20,693 nt of DNA from a virus. Each line of letters begins with the position of its first letter. Within the stretch, counting starts at the first letter, position 1. Under the pieces are notes generated by a model. The model ran no database searches and was not told the DNA's origin. It saw only the letters and a program-made list of their open reading frames with translations. A program made the position numbers and the translations under genes. This document shows positions 2,197 through 4,721 of this stretch, one piece after another. The DNA lies in IMG/VR virus record IMGVR_UViG_3300045135_002561, positions 1 to 20,693 of that record; one strand, given 5' to 3'.

Positions 2197-3132
2197 ATGT
2201 CTGAATTTCTTTGGGTAGAAAAACATCGCCCTCGCAAAATCGAAGAATGCATTCTTTCTAAGTCTTTAAAGACCACCTTTGAATCAATCGTCAAAGGTGG
2301 TGAATTACCTAATATGATGTTTTATGGTACAGCAGGTGTTGGTAAGACAACTGTGGCTCGAGCATTATGTAATGAATTGGATTTAGACTATATTGTCATT
2401 AACGGATCTGAAGAAGGCAATATTGATACTCTTCGAGGCAAAATTAAACAGTTTGCTTCGGCAGTGTCTTTGACTGGTGGATACAAGGTAGTAATTCTCG
2501 ATGAGGCCGATTATCTTAATCCTCAATCTACGCAACCTGCTCTCCGCGGGTTCATTGAAGAGTTCTCTAATAATTGCCGTTTCATTTTAACATGTAACTT
2601 TAAGCAACGTATTATTGAACCTTTGCATTCTCGTTGTTCTGTTTATGATTTTTCGATTCCTTCTAAAGAAAAACCAGTCATTGCGGCTGGTTTCTTCAAA
2701 CGTTTGGTAAAGATCTTATCTGACGAAAACGTTGATTATGATCAGAAAGCATTGGTAAGTGTAGTTGAAAAACATTTTCCGGATTGGCGTCGTGTGCTTA
2801 ACGAATGCCAACGGTACAGCATCTCTGGTAAAATTGATGCCGGGGTTCTTATAAATATAGATAACGACAACATAAAAACTCTTATGACATCTCTTAAAGA
2901 AAAGAATTTTAAGACGATGCGTAAATGGGTAGTCGATAATATAGACGTAGAACCTCAATCCATATTTCGAATGATATATGACAATATGACTGATTATGCG
3001 CAGCCACAATGTATTCCACAAATTGTTTTAATCATTGCTGATTATCAATATAAGAATGCATTCGTGTGTGATCACGAAATTAACATGGTCGCATGTTTAA
3101 CTGAACTGATGGCGAATGTAGATTTTAAATGA
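2197..3132 (+). CDS. 44: Clamp loader ATPase, large subunit (T4 gp44-like)
   Basis: 311 residues (T4 gp44: 319). An AAA+ protein of the RFC/clamp loader type: Walker A GTAGVGKTT (44-52), Walker B VVILDEAD (98-105), sensor 1 LTCN (131-134) and the SRC arginine-finger motif (145-147). The N-terminal WVEKHRPRKIEECIL is typical of RFC-type loaders. Four gp44 with one gp62 load the gp45 ring onto primer ends. The last 16 or so codons are repeated, diverged, at the end of the next gene, an HNH endonuclease that appears to have been inserted directly behind or into this 3' end. The visible gene is intact. Confidence 0.97.
   Translation: MSEFLWVEKHRPRKIEECILSKSLKTTFESIVKGGELPNMMFYGTAGVGKTTVARALCNELDLDYIVINGSEEGNIDTLRGKIKQFASAVSLTGGYKVVILDEADYLNPQSTQPALRGFIEEFSNNCRFILTCNFKQRIIEPLHSRCSVYDFSIPSKEKPVIAAGFFKRLVKILSDENVDYDQKALVSVVEKHFPDWRRVLNECQRYSISGKIDAGVLINIDNDNIKTLMTSLKEKNFKTMRKWVVDNIDVEPQSIFRMIYDNMTDYAQPQCIPQIVLIIADYQYKNAFVCDHEINMVACLTELMANVDFK
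3081..3132 (+). repeat. 3' end of gene 44, upstream copy of a 52-base duplication
   Basis: This segment, through the TGA stop of gene 44, matches 3853-3904 at 45 of 52 positions by eye. Both copies are read in the same frame and encode VACLTELMANVD, then FK here and WK in the other copy. Apart from the F/W codon (two bases) and the first codon, the differences are synonymous or within the stop codon. Confidence 0.9.
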
Positions 3133-3161
3133 AAATAATTCCAAAAATTAATGCATACTTG

Positions 3162-3169
3162 TATAAATA
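3162..3169 (+). promoter_or_regulatory. T4-type late promoter before the HNH gene
   Basis: A perfect TATAAATA octamer, the T4 late promoter consensus recognised by gp55-RNA polymerase with gp33 and the clamp, sits 33 bases before the HNH start codon in a non-coding gap. The context GTATAAATAGTATTG is nearly shared with the second late promoter at 6493, and both have GCATACTT just upstream. Confidence 0.75.
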
Positions 3170-3202
3170 GTATTGATATTAATATAAAGAGAAATTTGTC
3201 GT

Positions 3203-3904
3203 ATGGCTATTCAAGAAGGTGCAATTTGGTGGAATAATGGTGAGATCAATAAAAGATCTGTTGATTGCCCAGGAGAAGGATTCGTTAAAGGCCGTAAAAG
3301 TTTTAAACGAAAACCACATTCAGATGAACATCGTAAAAAATTATCAAAAGCATTAAAAGGTAAAGCTGCTTGGAATAAAGGTTTGGTTGATTCAGTTTCT
3401 GAAGAGACCAGAAACAAGATGTCAGATTCAGCAAAGGCCCGCTCTAAAAGAGGTATCATGCCGGATAACACTGGTAATACTGCTTGGAATAAAGGCCTAA
3501 CAAAAGAAACTGATGAAAGAGTTAAAAAATACGCCAATACGCAGTACGGTCAACTGCGTATTGGAAATTACATTACAGGCAAAGATCACCCAAATTGGAA
3601 TGATAGTAAAAGCGAGTACCAAGAATATTCTTATAAGGTAATGAGATTATCAGAACATAATTATAAGAATAATAAAAGCATCATAAACCCTGAAGGTTTG
3701 CCTAGGGGTAAATGTGGTGTAGATGGTGTATATCAGTTAGATCATATTATACCTATACATTATGGATTTATAAATAATATACCGGTGGAAATCATCGCTG
3801 ATACATCCAATCTACAAATGCTATCTTGGGAAAGCAATCGCATTAAAAGTAATAACGTGGTCGCATGTTTAACTGAATTGATGGCAAATGTGGATTGGAA
3901 ATAA
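3203..3904 (+). CDS. HNH homing endonuclease with NUMOD3 motifs, fused to a gp44 tail
   Basis: 233 residues. Residues 8-31 (WWNNGEINKR, then CPGEGFVKGR) form a DNA-recognition module frequent in phage HNH enzymes. Residues about 38-60 (HSDEHRKKLSKALKGK, then WNKG) and 72-100 are NUMOD3-like DNA-binding motifs. The HNH nuclease follows: LDHIIPIHYG and, further on, NLQMLSWESNRIKSNN, giving the expected D-H, N and N/K pattern. The natural domain should end there, but the frame continues for about 14 residues identical but for one to the gp44 C-terminus and uses that stop. A late promoter precedes it; the ribosome site (AAAGAG) is modest. It is probably a mobile, free-standing homing endonuclease. 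Confidence 0.9.
   Translation: MAIQEGAIWWNNGEINKRSVDCPGEGFVKGRKSFKRKPHSDEHRKKLSKALKGKAAWNKGLVDSVSEETRNKMSDSAKARSKRGIMPDNTGNTAWNKGLTKETDERVKKYANTQYGQLRIGNYITGKDHPNWNDSKSEYQEYSYKVMRLSEHNYKNNKSIINPEGLPRGKCGVDGVYQLDHIIPIHYGFINNIPVEIIADTSNLQMLSWESNRIKSNNVVACLTELMANVDWK
3853..3904 (+). repeat. 3' end of gene 44, downstream copy of the 52-base duplication
   Basis: Second copy of the gene 44 end, providing the last codons and TAA stop of the HNH gene. It is joined to what looks like the original downstream flank (the 264-residue membrane protein gene starts 22 bases later), so this copy may be the ancestral end of gene 44 and the upstream one the copy brought in. That ordering is inference. Confidence 0.85.
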
Positions 3905-3926: not shown

Positions 3927-4721
3927 ATGATACATTACATAGCATTCGTAACATCATTAGTCATTGCTGCTGTTGCGGCATACTTCTCAATCGCAGGATT
4001 GGTCGCTATGTTTTCTGGTGCGGTGGTATCCATTATTGTAATGGCCACCGTTCTGGAAATCGGAAAACTTGTAACCGCAACATGGTTGCATATACAATGG
4101 AAAGTAACAAAGTTAGCATATAAGATATATCTGTCAAGTGCAGTTATAGTTTTAATGTTAATCACAAGTATGGGCATCTTTGGTTATTTGTCAAAGGCTC
4201 ACTTGGACCAAATGTTGGTTACGGGAAATAACGAAGTTGAAATTGCTAGGATAGATACAAAGCTTAAAAGCGAGTATACTAGATTAGCATCTTTAGACCG
4301 ACAACTCAAAGCATTAGACGATGCACTGGATCGTTATATTGAATTGGGGTATGTAACCAAAGGGTTTGAGATGAGAGAGTCTCAGGCCGATGATAGAAAA
4401 GGTATAAGCGAACTTCGTGAAACAATTAATGGAAACATTCTTGAGCTTCAAGAAGAACGTGTCGGTTATGAAAAATCTCAGTTAGGATTTGAGGCCGAGC
4501 TTGGACCGATTAAATATGTGGCTGCATTGCTTTATGGCGAAGGTGCTGAAAAGAAATATGATGAAGCTATTCGTATTATTATTTTGATGCTGGTGTTTGT
4601 GTTTGATCCTTTAGCTGTAATGCTATTAATTGTATCAACAGGTGGAATTGTTCAAAGGAAAGAAATCGCTAAACAAGCTCCACCTATCGTACAATCGGAT
4701 CAGATATATAACTTAGATTAA
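3927..4721 (+). CDS. Four-helix membrane protein with central coiled coil
   Basis: 264 residues. Hydrophobic segments at about 4-26, 28-50, 67-88 and 214-238 look like transmembrane helices. Between the third and fourth lies a long charged helical region (about 95-195) rich in heptad-like leucines, for example DTKLKSEYTRLASLDRQLKAL and ISELRETINGNILELQEERV, typical of a coiled coil. Proteins of this shape recur in marine T4-like phages with no function assigned; an inner-membrane role during infection is likely from the topology alone. It follows the HNH gene and precedes dexA by 17 bases. An in-gene TATAAATA at 3769 could add a late transcript. Confidence 0.85.
   Translation: MIHYIAFVTSLVIAAVAAYFSIAGLVAMFSGAVVSIIVMATVLEIGKLVTATWLHIQWKVTKLAYKIYLSSAVIVLMLITSMGIFGYLSKAHLDQMLVTGNNEVEIARIDTKLKSEYTRLASLDRQLKALDDALDRYIELGYVTKGFEMRESQADDRKGISELRETINGNILELQEERVGYEKSQLGFEAELGPIKYVAALLYGEGAEKKYDEAIRIIILMLVFVFDPLAVMLLIVSTGGIVQRKEIAKQAPPIVQSDQIYNLD

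Follow-up and report, generated by a model that had tools for sequence, protein, structure and literature searches.

The window analysed here is the whole 20,693-nucleotide stretch of viral DNA in IMG/VR record IMGVR_UViG_3300045135_002561, in which gene 44, a nuclease gene and a membrane protein gene lie on the same strand (Table 1). The identification of gene 44 in the first-pass annotation was correct, as its product aligns over its full length with the phrog_168 clamp loader in PHROGs (E = 1.7e-119). The gene is uninterrupted, and the insert carrying the nuclease gene lies past its stop codon. The membrane protein gene behind the insert gave no match in Pfam or PHROG, and distant homologues of it are found in large phages of Stenotrophomonas, Xanthomonas, Salicola and others. 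In L002, gene 44, an exonuclease gene and a homologous membrane protein gene are likewise neighbours.

Table 1. Features at the gene 44 locus, in positions of the window
Feature	Position	Strand	Basis
Gene 44, clamp-loader large subunit, 311 aa, intact	2197..3132	+	phrog_168; Pfam AAA, Gp44_lid
Candidate cleavage zone on HNH-free gene 44 alleles, around GAAATTAAY	3072..3092	+	
Copy A, gene 44 3′ end in current use	3082..3132	+	44/51 to copy B
T4-type late-promoter core TATAAATA in the HNH leader	3162..3169	+	Conserved in relatives' leaders
NUMOD3-HNH homing-type endonuclease gene, 233 aa including the gp44-derived tail	3203..3904	+	
NUMOD3 motif, residues 37-74	3311..3424	+	Pfam PF07460, E = 4.3e-10
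HNH nuclease core, residues 137-217	3611..3853	+	Model, structural matches, invariant residues
Copy B, second gene 44 3′ end, final 16 residues of the HNH protein	3854..3904	+	
Membrane protein gene behind the insert	3927..4721	+	ORF

The 3′ end of gene 44 is present twice in the window. Positions 3081-3132 and 3853-3904 are identical at 45 of 52 positions in the same reading frame, with a stop codon terminating each, as had been claimed from a first reading of the sequence; counted in whole codons, the last 51 nt of gene 44 (3082-3132) and of the HNH gene (3854-3904) agree in frame at 44 of 51. The runner-up among all 52-mers of the window, on both strands, matches the repeat at 27 of 52 positions. 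The homology has a sharp left edge at ...TAAC, and none extends beyond the stop. Six codons differ between copies A and B, and the earlier description of the differences as mostly synonymous holds for four of them (including TGA/TAA). The other two exchange M for V and F for W, all of which are frequent at those sites across the gp44 family. Among 62 distinct gp44 tails, the average pair is identical at 34.8 +/- 3.9 of 51 positions and 3% of pairs reach at least 44, so that the agreement between copies A and B exceeds that of 97% of pairs of distinct relatives. When each copy is compared with the gene 44 ends of 81 relatives, the mean identities are 34.1 and 34.3 of 51. These near-equal values indicate that both copies are equally gp44-like, that is, ordinary gp44 ends.

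The insert codes solely for the HNH protein, and no integrase is found among its products. The protein matches phrog_5104 (E = 6.9e-31), and its residues 162-219 match the HNH endonuclease family phrog_6050 (E = 2.3e-5). In a structure search, the best rows were the Gme HNH nicking enzyme (Z 5.9) and the GVE2 HNH protein (Z 5.6), with the remaining rows being mostly HNH nucleases. The family has the invariant residues Y-x-x-D-H and N-L-x-x-x-x-W-x-x-N-x-x-K, and NUMOD3 is found in 13 of 15 aligned members. Most of the HNH core is modelled with a pLDDT of about 82-93, which drops to 52 and then 39 over the gp44 tail. A plain Foldseek search with the whole model gave no significant match and none of the Pfam HNH models match the protein, so that support for an HNH nuclease core is moderate; sequence searches of the PDB also returned nothing significant. 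HNH homology stops at about residue 217, and the nearest HNH homologues not located behind gene 44 (L081-L083 and phiM7) end 1-3 residues past N-x-x-K. The HNH part is therefore complete without the tail, which agrees with the earlier placement of the domain end near residue 218.

Two further observations concern the HNH gene. A perfect 12-bp inverted repeat (3534-3564, CCAATACGCAGT-acggtca-ACTGCGTATTGG) lies between the NUMOD3 motif and the HNH core; it is terminator-like on the minus strand and is absent from L105, L107, L262 and L264. The N-terminal sequence WWNNGxxNKRSxECPG of the gene 44 HNH family is found at the C-terminus of other nuclease-like ORFs at other sites (L268-L288), many of which, judged by eye, have GIY-YIG-like starts, and it is probably a portable DNA-binding module.

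The leader of the HNH gene contains the T4-type late-promoter core. In the window alone, TATAAATA is not above chance, and it is conservation across leaders that carries the signal, with exact copies in 11 of 13 distinct relatives' leaders where about 0.011 would be expected per leader. In some relatives, the leader also forms a start-codon hairpin resembling that of T4 endonuclease genes (PMC2988022). L116 has a strong version of this hairpin (z -6.4) and L105 and L110 a clear one, but L107 and the window lack it, and the leader alignment shows no compensatory pairs.

Searches with alignments of the HNH family recovered about 14 distinct NUMOD3-HNH relatives from diverse T4-like phages, all directly behind gene 44. 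The full-length orthologues (L105-L116, L262-L267) share about 45-60% identity with the window protein. A second gene 44 end of 12-54 nt, here called the remnant, lies at the far edge of the insert in every group of these relatives except one; in that group (L264-L267) the HNH gene is present and a second end was not detected. The remnant measures 51 nt in the window, about 54 nt in L107 and 33 nt in L262, 18-24 nt in L105, L110, L113, L114 and L115, and 12-18 nt in L108, L109, L111, L112 and L116, the many remnants of just 12-24 nt each being weak taken singly. Its position relative to the nuclease gene also varies. The remnant is fused in frame to the HNH gene in the window and in its closest relative, L262/L263, lies past the HNH stop codon in L110, L111, L112 and L116, and ends or follows a second nuclease gene in L105, L107, L108, L109 and L113-L115, where the second genes tested with Pfam or PHROGs were HNH_3, HNH or HNH-type. 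HNH relatives located elsewhere do not share the tail, as those between genes 18 and 19 carry neither a gp44 tail nor a duplicated end of gene 18. A strict protein motif for a second gp44 tail, a rule blind to short remnants, found none in the 80 closest gp44 loci; an exact degenerate tail pattern had no match over IMG/VR, and a GTDB genome scan yielded no relative.

Occupied gene 44 alleles were then compared with empty ones. In the 80 nearest gp44 loci, where identity reaches 78%, there is a single gene 44 end and no HNH gene, and the downstream genes vary greatly. The first-pass annotation had looked to HNH-free phages for one gene 44 end and a direct junction downstream, and this is what they usually have: the gene 44 stop codon overlaps the next start (ATGA or TAATG) in 69 of 76 HNH-free loci and in 0 of 12 HNH-bearing loci. 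Expressed as loss, the overlap is missing from 12/12 loci with the HNH gene versus 7/76 without it (Fisher 2e-10), and it is present again at most remnants. Across the 72 loci of the L262 type, a clear second end is found solely in the one bearing the HNH gene, with none in the other 71, so that HNH-free relatives carrying both copies, which would have spoken against an insertion, are not evident in this set.

The most direct comparison is between L111 and the HNH-free L238. Their gene 44 sequences agree without a difference over a stretch of at least 251 nt that ends 49 nt short of the stop. Past this point, L111 continues with a diverged but still functional gene 44 end, followed by a leader and the HNH gene, behind which lie 13 nt of L238's gene 44 end and then L238's next gene. 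The insert thus brings a replacement end and the resident's own end is displaced; aligned in this way, the two alleles show insertion with end replacement almost base by base. For other loci, we compared the remnant with an HNH-free allele having the same downstream gene and with the proximal gene 44 end of the locus itself. Of 18 positions, the HNH-free allele and the own end matched at 18 versus 15 in L105, 18 versus 14 in L114, 17 versus 11 in L113 and 15 versus 11 in L109; in L111 the figures were 12 versus 7 of 12, and L112 gave a tie. Together with the pattern of stop/start overlap, these matches mark the distal copy as the end that belonged to the resident and the proximal one as the newcomer. 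They also bear out the earlier proposal that the two copies are ends from two related phages and not a fresh duplication, since the relatives' remnants match another gene 44 allele.

For the window, whose polarity is taken from relatives in a comparison set that holds no near-identical HNH-free phage, copy A would have arrived with the HNH cassette, as the pairs L111/L238, L113/L234, L114/L186 and L105/L213 suggest by analogy. Copy B would be the original end of the resident phage. The closest gene 44 relative, L001, adds a weak hint in the same direction, matching copy B at 40/51 and copy A at 34/51. The membrane protein gene would then be the native neighbour of copy B. Of the earlier interpretation, insertion with a replacement end is supported by relatives that have a replaced end and the old end behind the insert, above all L111/L238. 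The displaced end is usually not the tail of the nuclease itself, however: often it lies past the HNH stop or forms the end of a second nuclease gene, and in some loci its reading frame is lost.

The HNH gene also has a history separate from that of gene 44. Among the relatives (window excluded), identity in the HNH gene is not correlated with identity in gene 44 (r = 0.18), and L113 and L111 have HNH genes that are 95.6% identical and gene 44s that are 74% identical. That the one does not track the other indicates that the HNH gene moves. The gene 44s of HNH-bearing loci are alike only across their last ~40 nt, with p = 0.0007 for the last 42 nt, 0.008 for the 3′ end when the last codon is excluded and 0.21 for the first 840 nt, values that are approximate because the label permutation ignores relatedness. 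The family has a fixed cognate site, and relatives hold empty alleles.

The comparison of alleles makes it very probable that the HNH gene encodes a free-standing homing endonuclease dedicated to the 3′ end of gene 44 and that it carries a replacement end with it. The mobile unit shown by the aligned loci consists of the last ~50 nt of the donor's gene 44, the leader, in which the TATAAATA late promoter is usually present, and the HNH gene. Its arrival replaces the gene 44 end of the recipient and leaves the gene intact, with 12-54 nt of the old end persisting behind the insert, beside the recipient's downstream gene. In the mechanism we propose, the HNH nuclease would nick or cut gene 44 alleles that lack the HNH gene, some 50 nt upstream of the stop. 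The left side of the break would be repaired through homology with the donor gene 44, importing the donor end and the HNH gene, while the right side, where there is no homology, would be joined to whatever is left of the recipient's end, with the minimum remnant set by the start of the next gene. In the window, this join would have fallen in frame at the C-terminus of the nuclease and so created the gp44 tail. The left edges of the two longest repeats, at -51/-52 in the window and -54 in L107, and the left breakpoint of L111 at -49 fall within about 5 nt of one another. This clustering, a coincidence noticed post hoc, suggests that they mark the cleavage site of the nuclease, and it agrees with the region previously proposed for cleavage, 3081-3100.

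Inserts of other kinds are also found at these gene ends. At the same gene 44 end, L253 has a PD-(D/E)XK-like nuclease gene (L253:5948-6577), and L240 and L247 have HNH_3 genes (L240:5945-6628, L247:4883-5674); behind each of them lies a second gene 44 end, 17-26 nt long. L188 and L191 carry the same 68-aa gene behind identical gene 44 ends (L188:3462-3668, L191:1243-1449), and their second ends and downstream genes differ, as if an 18-nt repeat were the recombination joint. The gene upstream of gene 44, whose product ends in KPEWV or similar, is likewise followed by a small insert and then by a copy of its own 3′ end in L237:4673-4994, L216:3640-3759 and L112:2888-3007, with a 20-nt match in L237.

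Several other explanations were weighed against homing. A group I intron or intein was rejected because gene 44 is of full length and the insert, lying past its stop, leaves nothing to splice, and a tRNA-type integrative element because the HNH protein is encoded alone, without an integrase. If the gene 44 end had been duplicated in tandem within this genome, and the HNH gene had subsequently entered between the copies or become fused to one, this would account for copies A and B being closer (44/51) than most pairs of relatives. However, the differences within the repeats of the window, L262 and L107 are mostly synonymous (19/22 differing codons, and 9/9 in L107, where the second copy is out of frame), despite the second copy being unconstrained as gp44. 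Both copies must have been functional gp44 ends until recently, which rejects an old local duplication; moreover, the relatives' remnants match a different gene 44 allele and not their own, and two clear ends occur in 0/71 HNH-free L262 relatives. We find this origin scarcely credible. It is also highly improbable that the tail is functional and has been retained because it tethers the nuclease to clamp loader or replisome. Such a role would fit the two independent in-frame HNH fusions (window and L262/L263), the several in-frame fusions to the second nuclease and the conservation of the tail residues, but most orthologues have no tail and end in KKHKLL or similar, the remnants of L105, L107, L240 and L253 are out of frame, and the tail is modelled with low confidence. 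Retention of the frame is also explained by keeping the stop next to the following start. With the displaced end so often past the HNH stop, within a second nuclease gene or out of frame, the tail looks incidental to the protein and probably has no role.

General recombination at gene-end "boundary" sequences, with the nuclease as a passenger, was also considered. Because the ribosome-binding region and start codon (ATGA) of the next gene lie within the end of gene 44, any insert joined there by homologous or microhomology recombination would acquire two flanking copies. The same short repeats indeed accompany other inserts, with or without a nuclease (L188/L191, L253); in L188 and L191 a single shared insert is paired with different second copies and downstream genes, and a similar repeat surrounds the insert upstream of gene 44 in L237. 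Yet where the second end is clear, the insert is in most cases an endonuclease gene. The HNH family keeps to one site, and it moves between phages whose gene 44s are about 70% identical. The replaced end of L111 reaches to -49, an edge shared with the window and L107 and well upstream of the ribosome-binding site and start. As a full account of the locus, we regard boundary recombination as unlikely, although recombination at gene ends could contribute, with or without nucleases. What tips the sequence comparisons towards homing of the gene 44 HNH family is the L111 allele, together with the constancy of the site and the mobility of the gene.

Among known systems, integrases that insert into tRNA genes regenerate the 3′ end of the gene, because the insert carries a copy of it. 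The logic here is the same, with the target's 3′ end carried by the insert, but there is no integrase, att core or identical direct repeat; instead, the copies are diverged and the breakpoints vary. In phage Aeh1, nrdA is split by MobE into two working parts. Both cases have a homing endonuclease in an essential gene of a T4-like phage whose function survives, while gene 44, in contrast to nrdA, is kept whole by a replacement end. To our knowledge, the homing endonuclease genes of T4 sit between genes and leave no second copy of the end of the target gene. The phrog_5104 HNH genes between genes 18 and 19 of T4-like phages have a homologous HNH core, but differ in their N-terminus and site and have no duplicated gene end. 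With the free-standing Seg and Mob homing endonucleases of T4-like phages, the HNH gene shares its form as an intron-less nuclease gene beside an essential gene, its late promoter, the start hairpin of many relatives, and spread between phages with co-conversion of flanks (PMC2988022). The text of the review on these enzymes, which also covers MobE of Aeh1, has no word starting with "duplicat" and leaves gene 44 unmentioned (PMC2988022).

A phage precedent for insertion with a replacement end was not found in the open-access literature searched, and by analogy the closest known parallel is the mobile ORFs (mORFs) of fungal mitochondria. These ORFs accompany duplicated C-termini in atp6 of Allomyces and in atp6, atp9, cox2 and nad3 of Glomus, with Glomus atp9 consisting of a 51 nt inserted end, the mORF and a 52 nt native end (PMC3630166). 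In both systems, an essential gene has an endonuclease ORF at its 3′ end, and the insert supplies a foreign, diverged, in-frame replacement C-terminus, with the native C-terminus displaced to directly behind the endonuclease (PMC3630166). The mORFs, however, encode LAGLIDADG or GIY-YIG enzymes and reside in mitochondria, whereas the gene 44 inserts encode NUMOD3-HNH proteins, reside in T4-like phages and have a late-promoter leader, and the phage displaced end is often just 12-24 nt. Because the HNH protein belongs to the NUMOD3-HNH family, unrelated to the mORF enzymes, it would work like an mORF without being one by descent.

In essence, an intron-less selfish nuclease can reside at an essential gene and leave it unbroken, with no need of a splicing element, because it carries the end of that gene. 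As this trick is known in fungal mitochondria and now in phages with a different nuclease family, it probably arose more than once. The pairs of occupied and empty alleles, one of them nearly base-exact, and the predicted cut ~50 nt before the stop make the mechanism directly testable. More tentatively, and with the balance leaning somewhat against it, the gene 44 3′ end may be a general docking site where unrelated nucleases (NUMOD3-HNH, HNH_3, PD-(D/E)XK-like) independently insert and regenerate the end; if true, it would be the phage counterpart of a tRNA-gene attachment site. Displaced gene ends explain odd C-terminal tails of annotated phage nucleases, and searching for such ends offers a way to find inserts of this kind.
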